DNA from: Pseudoxanthomonas broegbernensis
GTDB taxonomy: Bacteria > Pseudomonadota > Gammaproteobacteria > Xanthomonadales > Xanthomonadaceae
Length of the DNA stretch: 64,000 nucleotides
Direction: 5' to 3'
NCBI RefSeq assembly: GCF_014202435.1
Contig: NZ_JACHGU010000002.1
Coordinates: 248,001 to 312,000 of the forward strand
Shown: positions 12,998 to 57,282 of the stretch, piece after piece
Position numbering within the stretch: position 1 is the stretch's first letter
Layout of the letters: each line of letters begins with the position of its first letter
Notes under the pieces: model-generated
What the model was told of the DNA's origin: nothing
What the model saw: only the letters and a program-made list of their open reading frames with translations
Database searches by the model: none
Position numbers and translations under genes: made by a program

Positions 12998-14512
12998 ATG
13001 GCGCATCGTTCGACGACCGACGTGCTGGTCTGCGGGGCCGGCGCGGCCGGCCTCACCCTTGCCATCGAACTGGCGCGCCGCGGCGTCCGGTTCCGGCTGG
13101 TCGAGAAGAGGGCCACGCCGTTCCCGGGTTCGCGCGGCAAGGGCATCCAGCCGCGCACGCAGGAGATTCTGGAAGATATGGGCATCCTCGACAGGGCGGT
13201 GGCGGCCGGCGGCCTCTACCCGCCGCTGCGCGCCTACCGTGACGACGGCGGCTGGACCGATGCGGACATCGCCGAGCACGCCGGGCCGACGCCGGCCGAG
13301 CCCTACCGCCTGCCCCTGATGGTTCCGCAGTGGGTGACCGAACGCCTCATGCGCGAGCGGCTGGCCGAGCTGGGCCACCGGGTGGAATTGGGCTGCGAGC
13401 TGCTCGGCTTCGAACAGGACCGGGACGGCGTCGCGGCGCGCCTCGCGGGCCCGGCCGGCGAGGAGACCGTGCATGCCCGCTATCTGGTCGGTGCGGATGG
13501 CGGGCGCAGCTTCGTGAGGAAGGCGCTCGGCGTGGACTTCCCCGGCAAGACCCTCGGCGTGCGCGCGCTCGTCGCCGACGTCGTCCTGACCGGGCTTGAC
13601 CGCGATGCCTGGCACCAGTTCAACGGCGGCGACATGGCGCGGACAGTCGCGATCTGCCCGCTGGCCGGAACCGGCCTTTTCCAGATCCAGGCGCCGATCC
13701 CGCCGGATGCGCAGGCCGACCTCTCGGCCGAAGGGCTGGGCGCCCTCGTCGCCGAGCGCACGGGACGCACGGACATCCTCGTGCGCTCGGTGTCCTGGGC
13801 CTCGGACTACCAGATGAACGCGCGGCTGGCCGAACGCTACCGCGTGGGCCGGGTGTTCCTGGCCGGCGACGCCGCCCACGCGCATCCGCCCACCGGCGGC
13901 CAGGGGCTGAACACCAGCCTGCAGGATGCCTACAACCTGGGCTGGAAGCTCGCGGCCGCGCTGAAGGGCGCGCGGGAAGACCTGCTCGACAGCTACGAGG
14001 CCGAGCGCCGCCCGGTGGCCGAGGCCATGCTCGGTCTTTCCACCCGGCTGCTCGATGCCCAGAAGCAGGGCCGGATGCGGCGCGGACGCGAGGTGCTCCA
14101 ACTCGACATCGGCTATCCGGACTCGCCGCTGTCCAAGGAAACGCCCGCACGCACCGGCGGCCTGCGGGCGGGGGACCGTGCACCGGATGCCCCGGTCCGC
14201 GGCGCCGCAGGCCAGGCCACGCGGCTGTTCCGGTTGTTCCAGGGGACGCACTGGACGTTGCTGGCCCATGAGGCAGGCGATGCGTTGGTCGAGCCACGTC
14301 CGGGCCTGCATGTCCACCGCATCGGCGCGCAGGGCGAGGTGGCCGATGCCTGGGGGCATGTCCGCGATGCGTACGCATTGGCGCCGGGCGCGTGCGCGCT
14401 GATCCGCCCGGACGGATACGTCGGCGCGATCTTCGACGCGGAGCGGACCGCGAAGCTCGAGGCCTATCTGGCCCGGATGGGGGTGGCTCGGCTCGAGGAA
14501 GCATCCAGGTGA
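12998..14512 (+). CDS. class A FAD-dependent aromatic monooxygenase
   Basis: Flavoprotein hydroxylase of the PHBH/phenol-hydroxylase group (MhpA/PheA/RebC-like), using NAD(P)H and O2 to hydroxylate an aromatic substrate. 504 residues. FAD-binding GAGAAG at 13-18, the DG motif in VGADGGRS near 165, and the GD motif FLAGDAAHAHP near 288 followed by GGQGLNTSLQDAYNLGWKL. The C-terminal ~120 residues look like the thioredoxin-like tail of the phenol hydroxylase family. Start ATG at 12998 with GGAG 7 nt upstream. Regulated, by inference, by the divergent MarR protein. Substrate unknown; antibiotic-modifying relatives exist, so a detoxification role is possible. Confidence 0.85.
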   Translation: MAHRSTTDVLVCGAGAAGLTLAIELARRGVRFRLVEKRATPFPGSRGKGIQPRTQEILEDMGILDRAVAAGGLYPPLRAYRDDGGWTDADIAEHAGPTPAEPYRLPLMVPQWVTERLMRERLAELGHRVELGCELLGFEQDRDGVAARLAGPAGEETVHARYLVGADGGRSFVRKALGVDFPGKTLGVRALVADVVLTGLDRDAWHQFNGGDMARTVAICPLAGTGLFQIQAPIPPDAQADLSAEGLGALVAERTGRTDILVRSVSWASDYQMNARLAERYRVGRVFLAGDAAHAHPPTGGQGLNTSLQDAYNLGWKLAAALKGAREDLLDSYEAERRPVAEAMLGLSTRLLDAQKQGRMRRGREVLQLDIGYPDSPLSKETPARTGGLRAGDRAPDAPVRGAAGQATRLFRLFQGTHWTLLAHEAGDALVEPRPGLHVHRIGAQGEVADAWGHVRDAYALAPGACALIRPDGYVGAIFDAERTAKLEAYLARMGVARLEEASR

Positions 14513-31040: not shown

Positions 31041-31229
31041 TCAGGACGGGGGGGTGGTCGCCTCCGTCACCAGGGAGGCCAGGGTCGCGAACAGGCTGGT
31101 GAAGAAATTCGTGATCTGGGTGCGCCCCACCGTGACCAGAATCCCGGCGATGACCGCGGCCAGGAGCCCGTATTCCAGTGCGGTGACTCCGTCTTCCTCG
31201 TGCAGGAAGCGCGCGATGTGTTTTTTCAT
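31041..31229 (-). CDS. flp: Flp/Fap major pilin
   Basis: 62-residue Flp prepilin. Short basic leader MKKHIARFLHEEDG, then the mature start VTALEYGLLAAVIAGILV with the Flp motif (Gly cleavage site, Glu5-Tyr6) and one hydrophobic helix, ending in a short polar tail. GGGAG lies 9 nt before the ATG. First gene of the tad locus and probably by far the most expressed; there are 72 bp between it and cpaA, enough for partial termination. Confidence 0.95.
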   Translation of the reverse strand: MKKHIARFLHEEDGVTALEYGLLAAVIAGILVTVGRTQITNFFTSLFATLASLVTEATTPPS

Positions 31230-31642
31230 TTCATTTACTCCCGTCGTTGGTCCATTCAACTTGAGAAGCCGATTTTTATTGGTTTTATAACCGCCTTAGA
31301 GAAAATATTGCGATTCCATAAGGCAGGTAAATCGATGTTGCGATGAAGTGTCTCGGGCATAAACTGTGATGGGGGTCAAGGTATGGATATTCTTTTTTTA
31401 GGCTTCCGATAGCTCTTGCTGGTTATTGAATGATGCTCGGCCGTGCGCGAGGGAAAGTATGCACGGAACCGGCAAGATAAATGCCGTAACGATAGGCTGA
31501 ACTCCCGGCGATGTGTTTGTGCATTGGTTGCTTGAATCATCTTGCCGTTTATGTGCATCGCCATTCTCGTAAGGATTCGTATATAAGTGGTTGCGGGAAA
31601 TGTCGTTGCGCTTTGGATTTAGTGGCGGCGGTGTTTTCGGGA
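31230..31642. other. AT-rich control region between flp and the AraC gene
   Basis: 413 bp without a gene between divergent units, visibly lower in GC than the rest. It should hold the promoters of the tad locus and of the AraC-type regulator. TATAAA on the minus strand (about 31284-31289) and TATATAAG on the plus strand (about 31580) are possible -10 elements, but no matching -35 or clear operator repeat was found. Confidence 0.5.
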
Positions 31643-50550: not shown

Positions 50551-52053
50551 ATGTCCGCACCCCGCACCCGCGCCGACTGGCAGGCCATGGCCGGCCGCCT
50601 GGACCTGCGCACCCACGCCTTCATCGATGGCCGCTACGCGCACGCCGTCGACGGCGCCACCTTCGATTGCATCAGCCCCATCGACGGGCGCGTGCTGGGG
50701 CGGGTGGCCGCCTGCGGCGCGACGGACATCGACCGTGCGGTGCGCGCGGCCCGGCGCAGCTTCGAGGCCGGCGCCTGGTCGCAGGCCAGGCCCGCCAGGC
50801 GCAAGAGGACCCTGCAGACACTCGCGTCGCTGATCGAGAAGCATGCCGACGAGCTGGCCCTGCTGGAAACGCTGGACATGGGCAAGCCCATCGACGACGC
50901 CCGCAACGTCGACATCGCCGCCGCCATCCGCTGCTTCGCCTGGACCGCCGAGGCGCTGGACAAGGTGTACGGCGAGATCGCGCCGACCGGGCCGGGCGAA
51001 CTGGGCCTGGTCACCCGCGAGCCGCTGGGCGTGGTGGGCGCCATCGTGCCGTGGAACTTCCCGCTGCTGATGGCTGCCTGGAAGCTGGCGCCGGCGCTGG
51101 CCACCGGCAACTCGGTGGTGCTGAAGCCGTCCGAGAAATCGCCGCTGAGCGCGCTGCGCCTGGCCGAACTGGCGGCCGAGGCCGGCATCCCCGAGGGCGT
51201 GTTCAACGTGGTGCCCGGCACCGGGCAGGCTGCCGGCCAACCGCTGGCCCTGCACATGGACGTGGACGGGCTGGTGTTCACCGGCTCCACGGCGGTGGGC
51301 AAGCGCCTGCTGCGCTGCGCCGGCGAGTCGAACATGAAGCGCGTGTACCTGGAGTGCGGCGGCAAGAGCCCGAACATCGTCTTCGCCGACGCCCCGGACC
51401 TGGACAAGGCCGCGCAGGCCGCGGCCCTGGGCGTCTTCTACAACCAGGGCGAGGTGTGCACCGCCGCCTCGCGCCTGCTGGTGGAGCGCGGCATCAAGGA
51501 CGCGTTCCTCGCCCGCGTGGTCGAGGCAGGCAAGAAGATGCAGCCGCGCCACCCGCTGGAACCCGGCGCCCCCATGGGCGCGCTGGTGGACGAGGGGCAG
51601 GCCGCGCGCGTGCTGGACTACATCGGCAAGGGCCGGGCCGAAGGCGCCAGGCTCGCCCTGGGCGGCGAACGCGCCGAACCGGTGGCCGGCGGCAGCTACG
51701 TGCAGCCGACCGTGTTCGACGAGGTGCGTCCCGAGCACACCATCGCCCGCGAGGAGATATTCGGCCCCGTCCTGGCGGTGATCCCGTTCGACGACGAGGC
51801 CCAGGCCCTGCGCATCGCCAACGACACCCAGTACGGCCTGGCCGCCGGCGTGTGGACCGCGAACCTGTCGCGCGCCCACCGCGTGGCGCGCGGCCTGCGT
51901 GCCGGCAGTGTCTGGGTGAACCATTGGGACGGCGGCGACATGACGGCGCCGTTCGGCGGCTACAAGCAATCCGGGAACGGGCGCGACAAATCGCTGCATG
52001 CGTTCGACAAGTACACGGAGATCAAGGCGACGTGGATCGACCTGGGGGATTGA
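50551..52053 (+). CDS. aldehyde dehydrogenase, PuuC-like
   Basis: NAD(P)-dependent aldehyde dehydrogenase, 500 residues. Catalytic Cys303 in NQGEVCTAASRL, general base Glu268 in YLECGGKSPN, the Asn of IVPWNFPLLMAAWK, and EEIFGPVL. Closest in pattern to gamma-glutamyl-gamma-aminobutyraldehyde dehydrogenase (PuuC), i.e. polyamine breakdown; the divergent omega-aminotransferase fits. Other puu genes are missing from the window, so substrate is inferred. CTGGAGG lies 5 nt before the ATG. The last chromosomal gene before the cassette array. Confidence 0.92.
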   Translation: MSAPRTRADWQAMAGRLDLRTHAFIDGRYAHAVDGATFDCISPIDGRVLGRVAACGATDIDRAVRAARRSFEAGAWSQARPARRKRTLQTLASLIEKHADELALLETLDMGKPIDDARNVDIAAAIRCFAWTAEALDKVYGEIAPTGPGELGLVTREPLGVVGAIVPWNFPLLMAAWKLAPALATGNSVVLKPSEKSPLSALRLAELAAEAGIPEGVFNVVPGTGQAAGQPLALHMDVDGLVFTGSTAVGKRLLRCAGESNMKRVYLECGGKSPNIVFADAPDLDKAAQAAALGVFYNQGEVCTAASRLLVERGIKDAFLARVVEAGKKMQPRHPLEPGAPMGALVDEGQAARVLDYIGKGRAEGARLALGGERAEPVAGGSYVQPTVFDEVRPEHTIAREEIFGPVLAVIPFDDEAQALRIANDTQYGLAAGVWTANLSRAHRVARGLRAGSVWVNHWDGGDMTAPFGGYKQSGNGRDKSLHAFDKYTEIKATWIDLGD

Positions 52054-52239
52054 ACGAAGGGGCAGTCGGAGCGGGCCAGGCCGGCCAACCGGCTTGAAGC
52101 CGTTATGGCGGTACGGGTGCCGTGCTGGACCGGACAAGGCGGTGGCAACAGGCAAGGCCGCCGCATGACGCCGCGATGTGGGATGCCAAGGCGTCGATCG
52201 CTTCATGGCAAGTTATTGGTGGGCTGGGGGTATGCCCGG

Positions 52240-52268
52240 TTGACTGGTGTGGGGGGTAATCACAGAAT
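52240..52268 (+). promoter_or_regulatory. possible promoter driving the cassette array
   Basis: TTGACT (52240-52245), 17-bp spacer, CAGAAT (52263-52268), ending 34 bp before the first cassette core site. Matches 5/6 and 4/6 to the sigma-70 boxes. There is no attI or integrase here, so this may substitute for the usual Pc promoter. Confidence 0.4.
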
Positions 52269-52311
52269 CGGTGCTAAGCCGATGCTTTAGGTCTAATAAT
52301 AGTTAGCCCCC

Positions 52312-52716
52312 ATGAAAGGAATCAGCCACATTACATTCATCGTTCGTGACCTCGATCGCATGGCTGCGTTTCTATGTGAGGGGCTCGGCGCATGCGAGGT
52401 GTACAACAGCTCCAGCCAAAACTTTTCATTGTCACGCGAGAAGTTCTTTGTGCTCGGAGGCATCTGGTTGGCTGCAATGGAGGGCGATCCACCCGCTGAT
52501 CGTTCGTATCAGCACCTTGCCTTTGCAGTGAGTGAGTCTGACTTGCCCATGTACCAGGCCAAGCTTGAGGCACTTGGCGTCGAGATTCGTCCGCCGCGTA
52601 CTCGCGTCGAGGGAGAGGGCCTGTCCCTGTACTTCTACGACTTTGACAACCATCTATTTGAGCTGCACACAGGTACATTGGGGCAGCGTCTTGCCCGATA
52701 TGGGGCTGTGCGCTAA
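52312..52716 (+). CDS. fosX: FosX-type fosfomycin hydrolase (VOC family), cassette 1
   Basis: 134-residue vicinal-oxygen-chelate enzyme resembling Listeria FosX, which opens the fosfomycin epoxide with water in a Mn-dependent way. Metal ligands line up: His6 (ISHITFIV), His68 (YQHLAF), Glu117 (DNHLFELH). Glu43 in SLSREKFF matches the FosX general base Glu44, which sets FosX apart from FosA (glutathione) and FosB (thiol). EGEGLSLYFYDFDNHLF is nearly identical between the two. The stop TAA falls in the R'' box of attC1, typical of a cassette. First in the array, behind a possible promoter. Lower GC than neighbours. Substrate is inferred from residues. Confidence 0.87.
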   Translation: MKGISHITFIVRDLDRMAAFLCEGLGACEVYNSSSQNFSLSREKFFVLGGIWLAAMEGDPPADRSYQHLAFAVSESDLPMYQAKLEALGVEIRPPRTRVEGEGLSLYFYDFDNHLFELHTGTLGQRLARYGAVR

Positions 52717-52770
52717 CAATTCATTCGAGCCGAACCCGCTTCGCGGGTTGGCTTAACTCAGGCGTTAGGG
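52711..52770 (+). repeat. attC1
   Basis: 60 bp. R'' CGCTAAC, R' GTTAGGG (52764-52770). Inner arms AGCCGAACCCGC and GCGGGTTGGCT pair fully except for one extra G on the left arm, the extrahelical base that guides strand choice. Confidence 0.92.
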
Positions 52771-52787
52771 GCCACAGGGGAGTATCG

Positions 52788-53249
52788 GTGAACGACATTG
52801 ACCAAAACTGGCATGACCTTCGTCGCAATATTTCCGAGCGTAATCGCAGGCTCGCTGTTGAGAGCCGGTTGCACAAGCTCACAATGATCATTATGGGGCT
52901 TATGGCCTATTCGGCCTTTGGTAATTTCGTAGGGGCCGTCATGGTTCTTGGCACATCGCCAATCGATTTTGGCGTTGGGTTATTTTTTGGCATGTGGTAC
53001 TCATTCGGTGTTTACCGCGTCTGGCTGAAAGATGACACTCGCTGGTGGCCCGTAGCAGTGCCCGCCTGCTTGACGATCGTATGGCTATTGCTTGTTTGGT
53101 GGGCCACGGGCATGTTCCTCCCCATACCTGTGTTACTAAATGTAGCTCTGCTGGTACTGGTTCCTATCAGAGCGAGAGCTAGTGCGGCGTTGACTCCAGT
53201 GTTGCCTAGCAATACATTCAAGCCGAACCCGCTTCGCGGGTCGGCTTAA
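52788..53249 (+). CDS. cassette 2 membrane protein of unknown function
   Basis: 153 residues, GTG start with GGGGAG upstream. Hydrophilic ~30-residue start, then three or four hydrophobic segments (LTMIIMGLMAYSAFGNFVGA, GLFFGMWYSFGVY, ACLTIVWLLLVWW, LLNVALLVLV). The reading frame runs through attC2: the last 14 residues (PSNTFKPNPLRGSA) are coded by the recombination site, because R'' there reads CCTAGC. No family recognised. Low GC. Confidence 0.75.
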   Translation: MNDIDQNWHDLRRNISERNRRLAVESRLHKLTMIIMGLMAYSAFGNFVGAVMVLGTSPIDFGVGLFFGMWYSFGVYRVWLKDDTRWWPVAVPACLTIVWLLLVWWATGMFLPIPVLLNVALLVLVPIRARASAALTPVLPSNTFKPNPLRGSA

Positions 53250-53263
53250 TTCAGGCGTTAGGC
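53204..53263 (+). repeat. attC2
   Basis: 60 bp. R'' GCCTAGC (one change from GCCTAAC), R' GTTAGGC (53257-53263). Arms AGCCGAACCCGC and GCGGGTCGGCT pair with one extra A. Nearly identical to attC1 in the loop and arms. Confidence 0.92.
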
Positions 53264-53266
53264 TCC

Positions 53267-53605
53267 ATGATCATTTCCTTCGAAGGTCCAACATTCTTTG
53301 AGTTTGGGGGGTGAGGATCAGTTTTTTGGGCGGCTGTATTCGCTGCCTGAATACAAGGGCATTCGCGGCAGGGGTACGATCTTGGACCTGGAGTTCGCAC
53401 ATTCGGTAAGCGCTGACACCGTTCGGCAGCTCTTAGTCGTATTTCGCCGCTGGCGCATTGCCCCAGCGCCGCTAAACCCTTTGCGGGCCCCCTGAGGCAG
53501 ATGGCCTCGTACTTTGGGATATTTCCCTTCGAGAAGTCTGGCCTGAGGCCTGACAATTCATTCAAGCCTATGCCGCCTCTCGGCGTGGCTCAATTCAGGT
53601 ATTAA
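53267..53605 (+). pseudogene. cassette 3 gene, broken by two compensating frameshifts
   Basis: No intact long frame. Frame A starts MIISFEGPTFFEFGG then stops. Adding a shift at the G6 run (53303-53308) continues as GEDQFFGRLYSLPEYKG to LLVVFRRWRIAPAPLNPLRAP, then stops. A second, opposite shift at the C5 run (~53488-53492) returns to the first frame: MASYFGIFPFEKSGLRPD and a tail coded by attC3 ending at 53605. Restored protein is about 112 residues. Homopolymer sites suggest real decay or sequencing error. Family unknown to me. Confidence 0.7.
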
Positions 53606-53607
53606 GG
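53548..53607 (+). repeat. attC3, degenerate R' box
   Basis: 60 bp. R'' GCCTGAC, R' ATTAAGG in place of GTTRRRY, which loses the G of the cleavage dinucleotide context. Arms AGCCTATGCCG and CGGCGTGGCT pair imperfectly with an extra base. Recombination activity is doubtful. Confidence 0.8.
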
Positions 53608-53612
53608 CGCGC

Positions 53613-53939
53613 GTGGCGCATCCGCAGACACCCGATGGCCGATACATGGTGGTACGCGGCCGCCTCTGGCGGGTTGCGAACCCTCATCTTTCGCCACAGG
53701 AACGCGAGACCCTCGTCGGCGCGCTCATGGCCGCACGGCGGCAAGTAAAAGCCGCAATGGCAGTGGGCGATCCGGTTGCACTTTCGGCGGCCCGCAGCGC
53801 CGTCGACGCCGCGAAAACATCGCTTGGAGAGCGCGGCTCCGTCTGGTGGCATGATGGAGCCAAGGACTTCAATCGCTACCTGGTCAAGAACACCCCGTAT
53901 CGGGAGTGGTATGAGCAGCTCATCGGGCCGCAGGCCTAA
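53613..53939 (+). CDS. cassette 4 conserved protein of unknown function
   Basis: 108 residues, GTG start 5 nt after attC3; the AAGG of its R' box is placed as a ribosome site. Basic N-terminus (DGRYMVVRGRLWRVANPHLS), a helical Ala-rich middle (AARRQVKAAMAVGDPVALSA) and the C-terminal motif GSVWWHDGAKDFNRYLVKNTPY. Similar small proteins are common in proteobacterial genomes and cassettes, without known function. Stop TAA falls in R'' of attC4. GC closer to the chromosome than cassettes 1-2. Confidence 0.8.
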   Translation: MAHPQTPDGRYMVVRGRLWRVANPHLSPQERETLVGALMAARRQVKAAMAVGDPVALSAARSAVDAAKTSLGERGSVWWHDGAKDFNRYLVKNTPYREWYEQLIGPQA

Positions 53940-53990
53940 CCATCCATTCAAGCCGACGCTTCGCGGCGTGGCCGAGTTCAGGTGTTTGGC
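53934..53990 (+). repeat. attC4
   Basis: 57 bp. R'' GCCTAAC, R' GTTTGGC (53984-53990), which fits GTTRRRY except T at the first R. Arms GCCGACGC and GCGTGGC pair with one extra G on the left. Confidence 0.88.
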
Positions 53991-54004
53991 ACCGGGGGAC
54001 GACC

Positions 54005-54475
54005 ATGTCCGCGTATCTCGCTAACACATGGATCAGGATCGGCCTTGCCCTGGTCGTTCTTGGGTGGGGCCCGCTCTTGGCGATCATCGTGCTCGCCGCC
54101 ATCGGCCTCTGGCCGGACCCCAATCCAAACCCCATCGGCCCGGGCCTGCTGTTCTTCTTCACGTTTTGGCCGGCAATCATTTGCCTCTCGGTCGGCGTTG
54201 TTCGCGTCAGGCGCAACGCAGCGGCCGCCCCACGCGGCCCCATTTCCCGTACCGCGACCGCTTCCGCCGCGCGGACGCAGCCGGTTCTGGCACGCCTCAG
54301 CGGGTTTTTCTGGGTCAGGTTGTTCGTAGGCCTTTCCGGTGCGGGCCTGTTCCTGTATGGCTTGGCTTCTTTGTCCGAGGATTCCTCGCGCGGACCTGCG
54401 GCATCGATCGTCCTGGGGGGCGTGGCGATGTACTGGGGGTTTGTCGGTCGCGTTCCTTCGTGGTTCCGCCGTTGA
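54005..54475 (+). CDS. cassette 5 membrane protein of unknown function
   Basis: 156 residues with four hydrophobic segments: two near the N-terminus (IGLALVVLGWGPLLAIIVLA and LLFFFTFWPAIICLSVGVV), a basic middle loop (RVRRNAAAAPRG) and two toward the C-terminus (LFVGLSGAGLFLYGLASL and ASIVLGGVAMYWGFVG). GGGGGA lies before the ATG. No family recognised. Bounded by attC4 and attC5. Confidence 0.75.
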   Translation: MSAYLANTWIRIGLALVVLGWGPLLAIIVLAAIGLWPDPNPNPIGPGLLFFFTFWPAIICLSVGVVRVRRNAAAAPRGPISRTATASAARTQPVLARLSGFFWVRLFVGLSGAGLFLYGLASLSEDSSRGPAASIVLGGVAMYWGFVGRVPSWFRR

Positions 54476-54490
54476 TCGCGAAAGCCTGTT

Positions 54491-54550
54491 GCCTAACGGT
54501 TCGTTCAAGCCGGCGCCGCTTCGTGGCCCGGCTCAATTCAGGGGGTAGGC
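54491..54550 (+). repeat. attC5, degenerate R' box
   Basis: 60 bp. R'' GCCTAAC, R' GGTAGGC instead of GTTAGGC (54544-54550). Arms AGCCGGCGCCGC and GTGGCCCGGCT pair with one extra base and one wobble. The changed R' box may block further excision. Confidence 0.82.
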
Positions 54551-54557
54551 CGCACCG

Positions 54558-55022
54558 ATGCAATCTCATCGACTCCAGCTTTTCGCGGACTACCATCAGT
54601 TCTACCTCCAGGATGAGGCGGCGGACGGCGATCTATCCGAGGCGTGGAGCCCGGTCGCCGTACAACGGATGCTTGCCGTTTCCGACGGGGTCGTAGGCAT
54701 CGGCACGGTGCGCAACATGGACGTGCCCGTGACGATAGAACTTCTTGAGTCGGAGCCATCCGTCGATCTGGCGGGCTTTGACCACGTCGTCGAGGGGTCG
54801 CTTGCGATCGGCCGCGGCCCGCTTGTGGTGGCGGGCTGTACGGACTACTTCCCGGACGCAGCGCGCTTTGACTTGGCGCCGGGGACATACAGGGTGCGCC
54901 TGTCGGCCTCCGGCTTCGAAACGCTCTCGGAGGACGGCCTCGACGGGCAAGACCGCTACTTGGTGCAGTTGTGGCAAGCGCCGTTTATCGAGCCAACCGT
55001 GCTCAAGCAGGGTGCGGGGTGA
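54558..55022 (+). CDS. last cassette gene, possibly ComJ-like
   Basis: 154-residue soluble protein starting 8 bp after attC5. HRLQLFADYHQFYLQDE near the N-terminus and FDLAPGTYRVRL plus QDRYLVQLWQAP near the C-terminus resemble the pattern of ComJ/Nin nuclease-inhibitor-type proteins (YHQF, FDLPxGxY). The match is by eye and partial, so function is open. No attC can be found between its stop and the IS at 55199, so its recombination site is lost or never existed. Confidence 0.65.
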   Translation: MQSHRLQLFADYHQFYLQDEAADGDLSEAWSPVAVQRMLAVSDGVVGIGTVRNMDVPVTIELLESEPSVDLAGFDHVVEGSLAIGRGPLVVAGCTDYFPDAARFDLAPGTYRVRLSASGFETLSEDGLDGQDRYLVQLWQAPFIEPTVLKQGAG

Positions 55023-55192: not shown

Positions 55193-55198
55193 CCTAGG
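55193..55198. repeat. left target duplication CCTAGG
   Basis: CCTAGG, directly repeated at 56228-56233 on the far side of the IS. Fits the NCTAGN target known for IS481. Confidence 0.9.
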
Positions 55199-56227
55199 TG
55201 TGATCTCTCAGTAGGTTGTTCATCCGGGGCATCTCTGGAAGATGGGGGTTGCGAAGCCAACCCAGCCCCCAGGAGCCCCGGATGAACCTGCATAAACATG
55301 CCCGTCTTACGCCTCGCGGTCGAGCCCTGCTTGTCGAGCGGGTGATCGATCACGGCCTGCGGGTCGAGGAGGCCGCCCACGCCGCCGGGGTGAGCATCCG
55401 CACGGCGTACAAGTGGCTCCGCCGTTTCCGCCAGGAGGGCCTGGACGGGTTGCATGACCGCTCCTCGCGTCCTCTCCGATCCCCCACGGCGACTCCGCCA
55501 GGGGGGGGTGCGCAGGTGATCATGCTACGCCGTCAGCGACAGACCTATCGCCAGATCTCGCTGGCCTTGCCCGTCGGGCCGAGCACCATCGCCCGACTGA
55601 TGCAGCGTGCCGGGCTGCACCGACTGGCGGAGCTCGCGCCGGCACGCCCGGACAACCGCTACGAGTACCCGCAGGCGGGCGACCTGCTGCACCTGGACGT
55701 CAAGAAACTGGGGCGCTTCTGGCGGCCCGGACACCGGGTCACCGGTGATCGCCAACGCGCATCCGACGGCGCCGGATGGGAGTTCGTCCACCTGGCCATC
55801 GACGACCACTCCCGGGTCGCCTTCGGCACCATCGAGAACGACGAGCGTGGCTCCAGCGCCTGCCGCGCATTGCTGCAGACACTGCGCTACTACCGAACCC
55901 TCGGCGTCACCTTTACCCGGGTGATGACCGACAACGGGGCCTGCTACAGGAGCCGGCGGTTCCGCCGACTCCTGCAGCGCCTGGGGCTGCGACACCTGCG
56001 CACACGGCCCTATACGCCACGCACCAACGGCAAGGCCGAACGGCTGGTCCAGACCGCGTTGCGCGAATGGGCCTACGCCCGCTCCTACCACAACTCCCAC
56101 CAGCGCCAGCAGGCACTTCCTGCCTGGCTGCACCGCTACAACTGGCATCGACCGCATGCCAGCCTGGGCTACAAGCCCCCTATCAGCCGACTCCACCTCC
56201 CGCTGAACAACGTCATGGGTTTACACA
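55199..56227 (+). mobile_element. IS481-family insertion sequence, complete
   Basis: 1029 bp between 6-bp CCTAGG duplications. Ends are imperfect inverted repeats starting TGTG, with a second shared word GTTGTTCA about 22 nt in. One transposase gene fills it. Intact ends, intact frame and perfect duplication suggest a recent insertion. It separates the cassette array from the RIO kinase gene. Confidence 0.9.
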
Positions 56228-56232
56228 CCTAG
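55282..56232 (+). CDS. IS481-family DDE transposase
   Basis: 316 residues. N-terminal helix-turn-helix pair (LRVEEAAHAAGVSIRTAYKW), linker, and rve-type catalytic core with Asp139 (LLHLDVKKL), Asp217 (VMTDNG) and Glu253 (NGKAERL), a DD(35)E spacing. AGGAG lies 8 nt before the ATG. The stop codon TAG at 56230-56232 is in the duplicated target CCTAGG, outside the element, so each insertion into NCTAGN recreates it. A G8 run near 55501 was checked and the frame stays open. Confidence 0.95.
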   Translation: MNLHKHARLTPRGRALLVERVIDHGLRVEEAAHAAGVSIRTAYKWLRRFRQEGLDGLHDRSSRPLRSPTATPPGGGAQVIMLRRQRQTYRQISLALPVGPSTIARLMQRAGLHRLAELAPARPDNRYEYPQAGDLLHLDVKKLGRFWRPGHRVTGDRQRASDGAGWEFVHLAIDDHSRVAFGTIENDERGSSACRALLQTLRYYRTLGVTFTRVMTDNGACYRSRRFRRLLQRLGLRHLRTRPYTPRTNGKAERLVQTALREWAYARSYHNSHQRQQALPAWLHRYNWHRPHASLGYKPPISRLHLPLNNVMGLHT

Positions 56233-56233
56233 G
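56228..56233. repeat. right target duplication CCTAGG
   Basis: Second copy of the 6-bp target. It carries the stop codons of two genes: the transposase (plus strand, 56230-56232) and the RIO kinase (minus strand, 56231-56229). Confidence 0.9.
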
Positions 56234-57089
56234 CGTCGTCTTCCGCGGCGGCCTCGCGGCCCTGCTGACGGATCAGTGCTTCTTCGCGGGCGTCGTTGAT
56301 GGCCTGGCGCACGCTGTCCAGGTCGACCGCGGATTCGTCCGGGGTGAATTCGCCGGTCAGCTCCGTGTCCGGCTGCAGGTCGCCGGCCTGGAACAGCGCC
56401 CACATCTCCTCGCCGTACCAGGTGTCCAGCAGCTCGGGCGCCCAGCGGCCGAGGTTGGCGGTGAGGTTGTTGACGTCGCGCAGCAGCATCGTGCGCGCGG
56501 CGTTGTTGCCGGCGGCGCTGACCACCTGCGGGAAGTCGATCACCACCGGCCCGTCCGATCCGACGAGCACGTTGTAGGCGGACAGGTCGCCGTGGATCAG
56601 GCCGCAGCACAGCATGAGCTTGACCTGCCGCACCAGCACCTGGTGGTATTGGCGCGCCTGTTGCGCATCGAGTTCCACCTCGCCCAGGCGCGGCGCGGAG
56701 AAGCCTTCGGCATCGGCGACCAGTTCCATCACCAGCACGCCATGGAAGTAGCCGTGCGGCTCGGGTACGCGCACGCCGGCGGCGCGCAACTGGTAGAGCG
56801 CCTCGACCTCGGTGTTCTTCCAGGCGGCCTCCTGCTGCTTGCGCCCGTACTTGCTGGCCTTGCCGATGGCGCGCGCCTGGCGGCTGCCGCGCACCTTGCG
56901 GCCTTCCTGGTATTGCACGCGCTGCTGGAAGCTGCGCTGGGCCATGTCCTTGTAGACCTTGGCGCAGCGCACTTCGCCGCCGCTGCGGACGACGTACACC
57001 GCCGCTTCCTTGCCGCTCTTGAGCGGTCGCAGCACTTCATCGATGACGCCGTCATCGATCAGCGCCTGCAGGCCTTGGGGGGTCTTCAC
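56229..57089 (-). CDS. RIO-type serine protein kinase
   Basis: 286 residues of the bacterial RIO1-like kinase group (Pseudomonas PA4780 type). ATP loop SGKEAAVYVVRSGG, RIO block RCAKVYKDMAQRSFQQRVQY, catalytic HGDLSAYNVL and metal-binding VVIDFPQ. The start is GTG at 57089 (VKTPQGLQALIDDG); the only upstream ATG would add ~90 residues of low-complexity sequence. Substrate unknown. An IS481 element inserted exactly at its TAG stop without changing the protein. Confidence 0.9.
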   Translation of the reverse strand: MKTPQGLQALIDDGVIDEVLRPLKSGKEAAVYVVRSGGEVRCAKVYKDMAQRSFQQRVQYQEGRKVRGSRQARAIGKASKYGRKQQEAAWKNTEVEALYQLRAAGVRVPEPHGYFHGVLVMELVADAEGFSAPRLGEVELDAQQARQYHQVLVRQVKLMLCCGLIHGDLSAYNVLVGSDGPVVIDFPQVVSAAGNNAARTMLLRDVNNLTANLGRWAPELLDTWYGEEMWALFQAGDLQPDTELTGEFTPDESAVDLDSVRQAINDAREEALIRQQGREAAAEDDA

Positions 57090-57282
57090 GGAGTCTCTGG
57101 AGGGGGACGCGGCGATGCCGGCGCCGAGGCGGCGAATCTTCGCATCTTCGGGCGGGCGTAGCCATCGCCGGATGCGGCCCTGGCTGCCGGCGGAGGCCGG
57201 CGGCCAGGACGGAAGGGGCACGGGCGGTGCCCCTTCCGTCTTCCCGGTCCGCCGTGGATGCCGTCGGCCGGGAACCGGCCGC

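Follow-up and report, generated by a model that had tools for sequence, protein, structure and literature searches.

A cassette array without a local integrase behind the aldehyde dehydrogenase gene of Pseudoxanthomonas broegbernensis

Introduction

How does an array of integron cassettes come to stand in a chromosome with no integrase gene beside it? This question is raised by a locus of Pseudoxanthomonas broegbernensis (Xanthomonadaceae), included in a stretch of 64,000 nucleotides (here called the window) that belongs to a contig of 753 kb (C2) within an assembly of 3.47 Mb and 32 contigs. In this window, five attC-like sites, all of them on the + strand, separate six small reading frames between an aldehyde dehydrogenase gene (aldH) and a copy of an insertion sequence (IS) of the IS481 family beside a RIO kinase gene. 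An initial annotation, made from the sequence alone, named the locus a cluster of attC sites lacking an integron integrase (CALIN) and offered two origins for it, the remnant of a chromosomal integron or cassettes caught at a secondary site. The analysis reported here favours the first and disfavours the second: the array is very probably what remains of a sedentary chromosomal integron that stood behind aldH and lost its integrase gene (intI). This reading is preferred because what we read as a diverged attI lies at the left end of the array, and because congeners carry integrons behind the same aldH gene.

The array illustrates well a type of element that is already known, since such arrays have already been described in Xanthomonas. 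There, as here, integrase-less arrays lie away from intI and at several chromosomal loci; unlike here, the main integron is found at ilvD, and no attI heading the CALINs is reported in the part of the paper available to us (PMC12444791). The present locus adds one case that indicates how an integrase-less array could arise, that is, by intI loss from a standing integron, as judged against the same locus of sister species.

The array and its attC sites

Because a test of the window sites should avoid circularity, a covariance model (R1) was built from 11 attC of another contig of the same genome, the window sites being unseen in training. Run over the whole 64 kb, on both strands and with filters off, R1 recovers exactly five sites (Table 1), with E values from 1.6e-19 to 4.5e-8, and the next match in the window is found at E 4.2. 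A search against Rfam with its gathering thresholds matched no family. The sites and their common direction are thus confirmed by a model blind to them, and the rest of the first description needs some adjustment. The distance from R'' to R' is 53-56 nt, slightly shorter than the 57-60 bp originally given. Some of the R' boxes are intact, and in those of attC 3 and attC 5 the crossover triplet GTT is missing. There are indeed six gene slots, of which the third reads as two frames and the sixth has no attC behind it. A base composition unlike that of the flanks is strongly marked in the frames of cassettes 1-3 (52.0-58.6% GC) and weakly in those of cassettes 4-6 (63.9-64.8%), to be compared with 72.1% in the aldH gene and 70.8% in the window. 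The lowest-GC bin of 400 nt in the window (45.2%) is located elsewhere, at 31201-31600, and is below the cassette array in this respect.

The five sites are not equally preserved: attC 1 and attC 2 are near consensus and much fresher than attC 3 to 5, which are decayed. The z-scores of bottom-strand folding for attC 1 to 5 are -2.8, -4.3, -2.1, +0.2 and -2.2, respectively, and one attC of contig C10 gives -4.5. No further attC was matched by R1 downstream of the sixth gene, even at E 10, and therefore the array is cut at its right end. As regards the integrase, there is no intI match on contig C2, and the only one in the genome lies on contig C10, in agreement with the absence of an integrase in or near the array stated at the outset. 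Five attC accepted by an independent model, with no intI adjoining the cluster, leave the naming of the locus as a CALIN in a Xanthomonadaceae chromosome as it was. A complete integron would have intI adjacent to attI, which is not the case here; a candidate attI does stand at the array head, as judged by a sequence profile and a position weight matrix (PWM).

The left junction

Cassette 1 starts at the very base at which the clinical fosI and fosE cassettes start, and for this reason the host sequence is taken to end with the G at 52302. Two tools were applied to this junction, both excluding the genome under study: a profile hidden Markov model made from 15 intI-linked attI regions of other genomes, and a PWM made from 13 intI-linked sites, which covers only the 46 bases upstream of the crossover. 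With the profile (nhmmer), 52234-52306 ranks first in the window (E 7.1e-5, next 0.31; E 0.0011 when all loci are searched jointly). With the PWM, the junction ranks first among 127,900 positions with 31.2 bits, the overlapping match on the opposite strand reaching 7.0 and the best unrelated one 5.7. We read this stretch as a diverged attI, a candidate on the grounds of its sequence. It includes a candidate cassette promoter (Pc); the consensus scan, carried out on 3.2 kb, found 3 sites against 0.9 expected by shuffles. The TTGAC motif is located 63 nt before the crossover in the window and in the genomes G003, G009 and G012 of the genus, and 64 nt before it in G002. Over the 63 bases of this promoter-attI stretch, 40, 38 and 36 are identical to those of G003, G009 and G012, respectively.

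This junction bears directly on the other origin first offered, according to which the C10 integrase captured the cassettes, one at a time or all at once, at a secondary site of the chromosome (attG). Insertion at attG has been described in print (Loot 2024, cited in PMC12444791), the genome holds an intact integrase, and single attC at C2:708596 and C7:36661 are in keeping with such events. However, in an attG insertion the target to which the array is joined would be neither an attI nor an attC, and here the left junction resembles attI over about 70 nt, which is beyond what the crossover alone would give, while the right junction, being truncated, gives no information; at the right end of the array there is also no attC, although an insertion would have left one. 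If one adds to this that in G003 and G012 integrons with intI occupy the corresponding place, capture at attG becomes very improbable.

The aldH locus in congeners and the origin of the array

The comparison of the junction between aldH and the RIO kinase gene with that of congeners, proposed in the initial annotation, revealed intI, attI and attC behind aldH in G003, and intI and attI in G012. The order in G003 is amt, aldH, intI, attI and then two attC; in G012 it is amt, aldH, intI and attI, the contig ending 766 nt past attI. These two loci share with the window the neighbour gene, the orientation and the attI type, and the attC of G003 are matched by R1; they differ in that both keep intI, the attI and attC 3-5 of the window are more decayed, and G012 has no attC. 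The locus of G013 (amt, aldH, attI and two attC, with a contig end not far beyond) resembles that of the window in keeping attI behind aldH and lacking intI there, the intI of that genome being at a phhA-lrp locus. Its attI, though, has a 5-nt gap with respect to the others, and no protein match to cassettes 2-6 of the window was found in that array. In G003, the region behind the aldH-locus integron (L197:7683-9162) contains, by eye, a shortened frame resembling HsdM and, after it and on the opposite strand, a transposase of IS3 type.

On the other side of the array, G002, G007, G004 and G014 have a gene block (porin, yitT, dapA2 and others) between the RIO kinase gene and aldH, which is missing between these two genes here. 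When the block of P. kaohsiungensis was searched at the DNA level in the genome under study, only 98 nt at 86%, 467 nt at 67% and about 590 nt at 64% were matched; at the protein level, its dapA2 and rlu products, the only ones searched, have just distant homologues there (45% and 28-39%, respectively).

From these comparisons, the following course can be proposed. The original order would have been aldH, intI on the reverse strand, promoter and attI, and finally the cassettes. A deletion may have taken intI and stopped before the core formed by promoter and attI, which is still directly adjacent to cassette 1. A separate loss would have truncated the array distally, so that its last attC disappeared; the gene block beside the RIO kinase gene would have gone in the same or in another event. 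IS481 would have been inserted at the stop codon of the RIO kinase gene, where it is now found. With no local integrase the cassettes are probably frozen, and they could move only if the C10 integrase acted in trans; transcription of cassette 1, of FosX/FosI type, probably continues from the retained candidate promoter.

A second attI of G003 (L198) is of help here. It has no full intI, and beside it 369 nt are 77.5% identical to the intI-linked region and are accompanied by an intI scrap of 28 residues (53.6%, E 6e-4). These remains are direct support for intI loss in that case. A tblastn search for such scraps at the other seven intI-less attI sites tested (the one in L251 was excluded) gave nothing comparable, G013 showing a weak match at E 0.33.

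Several observations weigh against the proposed relic. The attI of C10, in the same genome, scores -1.7 with the PWM and is not reported by the profile; therefore these tools do not recognise every attI. No recognisable intI remnant is present beside the window attI at 51901-52330 (best tblastn E 0.043), so that the loss of intI is itself something that we infer. G012 has no attC match genome-wide at E 1e-4, and therefore G003 alone shows the full set of intI, attI and attC at the aldH locus. Besides, 13 other genomes of the genus have a strong aldH match, and in 10 of them neither attC nor intI appears in the flank of that gene (about 2 kb of flank were examined in G009 and longer ones in the other genomes); therefore integrons may have been acquired at the locus on more than one occasion. 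Finally, the right-hand boundary of the array matches no relative.

An exact empty site was also looked for in the relatives and not found, the sequence past the aldH stop codon being unalignable.

The resident integron

The search of the whole genome for intI and attC, also suggested in the initial annotation, located one intact integron integrase of 354 amino acids (aa) at C10:44347-45411 (TIGR02249, 484 bits, cut-off 265), so the window array is integrase-less locally and not genome-wide. This intI adjoins lrp-like and phhA-like genes (named by eye) and heads 19 attC matches that reach near the contig end. Other attC matches are three on contig C16, joined by a fourth in a second search and lying near a contig end, the single ones at C2:708596 and C7:36661, and three weak ones. 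Within the C10 array, what is apparently the same cassette appears twice (L002:9823-10226 and 13947-14350), and the attC of each copy is, at 111 nt, unusually long. The lone attC at C2:708596 (L171:8597-8651) lies beside frames resembling, by eye, the remains of an IS3 and a GNAT toxin-antitoxin pair on the opposite strand.

A tree of 15 integrases (14 from the genus and one from G262, of another Xanthomonadaceae genus) shows two branches separated by a split with 100/100 support; it is midpoint-rooted and has four long branches, so positions within the branch of the C10 integrase are unsure. That branch includes the integrases of G004, G006, G010, G011 and G262, and those of the aldH locus in G003 and G012 fall in the other. 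The intI of G013 is at the phhA-lrp locus, as here, yet it is of the common branch, and therefore locus and branch do not go together in that genome. With regard to attI, the window site has 18-25 of 35 bases in common with nine sites of the common type, and 12-16 of 35 with five divergent ones, among them the C10 attI, from which it differs (8 of 13 core bases). By tree and attI, then, the resident integron and the relic look like separate integrons.

It could also be thought that a piece of the C10 array was moved to this place by inversion, transposition or an IS-mediated rearrangement, as IS481 borders the array and the interval between the RIO kinase gene and aldH is rearranged with respect to the relatives. 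We regard such a move as highly unlikely, given that the array carries its own attI of a type unlike that of C10, that the fetched stretches of C10, C16 and the 708-kb region of C2 hold no match to any window cassette (none of 130 nt at 75%), and that the contig of the window is 753 kb long. Moreover, IS481 stands between CTAG copies and therefore looks like a later, simple insertion.

Integrase-less arrays and orphan attI in the genus

Is the lack of a local integrase exceptional in these bacteria? Among 17 genomes of the genus, intI is found in 16 (E 1e-60 or better) and attC also in 16 (E 1e-4 or better), G016 being without an intI match and G012 without an attC match at those thresholds. 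In the three genomes that consist of a single contig (G005, G011 and G014, the last listed as only 57% complete), seven arrays of at least two attC (E 0.01 or better) lie away from intI. In Xanthomonas, about 50% of the genomes are stated to carry CALINs outside the main locus (Colombi 2025, PMC12444791). Taken together, these frequencies make a CALIN as such ordinary here.

The presence of attI in such arrays is also recurrent. The attI profile was run on fetched stretches and not on whole genomes, intI being placed elsewhere by whole-genome search. In this way, attI without a full intI alongside was found at, near or inside arrays in G003, G004, G005, G006, G011 (two sites), G013 and G014, which together with the window makes nine sites in eight genomes. 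Four of the seven CALINs of the single-contig genomes have such an orphan attI (L175, L176, L177 and L251), and the profile found none in L250 (E 3.4), L252 and L253. In L176, one attC precedes attI. Judging by titles and the openings of abstracts, none of the papers retrieved by searches of the open-licence literature describes integrase-less arrays headed by attI for Pseudoxanthomonas.

These sites raise a different possibility for the window, namely that it is a working satellite platform, its attI and promoter maintained by selection and supplied with cassettes by the distant integrase acting in trans. The seven congeners with intI-less attI at, near or inside arrays all have an intI match elsewhere, and the freshness of attC 1 and attC 2 compared with attC 3 to 5 would suit recent additions, although it could predate intI loss. 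When cassettes were compared between intI-headed and intI-less arrays within eight genomes, a possible exchange was detected in G011, where a stretch of 753 nt is 93.5% identical between both kinds of array; no such match was found in G000, and no cassette match was found between the window and C10 arrays. A longer match of G011 (1,116 nt at 99.9%) was discarded as an exchange since it overlaps a frame of 361 aa that is, by eye, an IS30-type transposase. The different intI branch and the different attI type of C10 weaken the idea that its integrase still serves the window attI, and a satellite role for the window is therefore considered unlikely, the relic remaining the preferred explanation.

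At the level of the genus, Pseudoxanthomonas could have a distributed integron, in which one integrase would serve several attI platforms in trans, each of them with a promoter and cassettes; we hold this proposal to be unlikely. If it were true, the local loss of intI would produce a dependent satellite instead of a fossil, and the window attI could receive new cassettes, which would be expressed there. As integrase-less arrays of the genus often keep their own attI, among the stretches searched, service in trans is directly testable.

Cassette contents and flanking genes

Cassette 1 is a member of the FosX/FosE/FosI family of fosfomycin hydrolases according to its sequence, and the opening of fosfomycin is its predicted function; it resembles a gene for resistance to fosfomycin found in hospital bacteria. 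The protein is 85.1% identical to FosI and 79.9% to FosE, both plasmid-borne, and its close solved relatives are the FosX-like structures 1r9c and 2p7q. The residues H6, E43, H68 and E117 align with identical residues in both structures, and we take them to be the metal ligands and the general base of FosX. At the DNA level, identity is 80.3% to the fosI cassette and 77.3% to the fosE cassette. These two cassettes, from class 1 integrons (NZ_AP022376.1, NZ_AP022476.1, NZ_AP024942.1), have the same start (TTAGC-CCCATG), the same length (466 nt to the attC end) and the same attC type; they differ in being located behind intI1 on plasmids, whereas that of the window is chromosomal.

Homologues of cassette 1 (E 1e-25 or better) occur in 34 of 395 genomes of the family, this one included. 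Of the loci from the other 33, 24 were searched with R1, and attC (E 0.01 or better) was found at four (L203, L204, L206 and L208). One of them (L203, in G262; L261:8436-8902, contig C1) holds a cassette of 467 nt that is 97.9% identical to the clinical fosE of a class 1 integron. The array around it has 16 attC matches, all on the same strand, and lies next to a homologue of intI (65.7% over 347 aa). The clinical fosE cassette has been predicted to come from Xanthomonadales (Ghaly 2021, PMC8352920), and both the FosI-like cassette in the chromosome studied here and the cassette of G262 fit that origin.

No Pfam or NCBIfam family was matched above cut-off by cassettes 2-6. The gene of cassette 3 is probably broken, as its two short overlapping frames are consistent with a frameshift. 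The protein of cassette 2 has a match of 40% over 135 aa in one integrase-less array of G011 (L175).

Table 1. Features of the cassette array, its flanks and the orphan attI sites of other genomes
Feature	Position	Strand	Basis or remark
Aldehyde dehydrogenase gene (aldH)	50551-52053	+	Pfam Aldedh E 1.7e-174
Diverged attI (candidate); crossover after G at 52302 (G^TTAGCC)	52234-52306	+	nhmmer profile, PWM, alignment
Candidate cassette promoter Pc, TTGACT - 17 - CAGAAT	52240-52268	+	consensus scan, 9/12
Cassette 1, crossover to crossover (gene and most of attC 1)	52303-52764	+	fosI/fosE cassette comparison
Cassette 1 gene, FosX/FosE/FosI-family protein, 134 aa	52312-52716	+	NF000222 200.7 bits, cut-off 170
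attC 1	52713-52768	+	R1 73.7 bits, E 1.9e-17; R' GTTAGGG
Cassette 2 gene, hypothetical, hydrophobic by eye; frame enters attC 2	52788-53249	+	open reading frame (ORF)
attC 2	53206-53261	+	R1 81.2 bits, E 1.6e-19; R' GTTAGGC
Cassette 3 reading frame	53298-53495	+	start frame 53267-53314 closes early, overlaps this frame
attC 3	53550-53605	+	R1 44.3 bits, E 2.3e-9; R' degenerate, ATTAAGG
Cassette 4 gene, hypothetical, 108 aa	53613-53939	+	ORF; Pfam match sub-threshold only
attC 4	53936-53988	+	R1 39.6 bits, E 4.5e-8; R' GTTTGGC; weak hairpin
Cassette 5 gene, hypothetical, hydrophobic by eye, 156 aa	54005-54475	+	ORF
attC 5	54493-54548	+	R1 48.4 bits, E 1.7e-10; R' degenerate, GGTAGGC
Cassette 6 gene, hypothetical, 154 aa; without attC	54558-55022	+	ORF
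IS481-family insertion sequence	55198-56228	+	LZ_Tnp_IS481 E 4e-29; between CTAG copies 55194-55197 and 56229-56232
RIO kinase gene	56229-57095	-	Pfam RIO1 E 3.5e-38
Orphan attI in seven other genomes	L175:11439(-), L176:7545(+), L177:11522(-), L181:5739(+), L188:16117(-), L193:1865(-), L198:2468(+), L251:5311-5501(+)		

The flanks of the array are those first described, a normal aldH gene on the left and IS481 beside the RIO kinase gene on the right, as the Pfam matches to Aldedh, LZ_Tnp_IS481 and RIO1 indicate.

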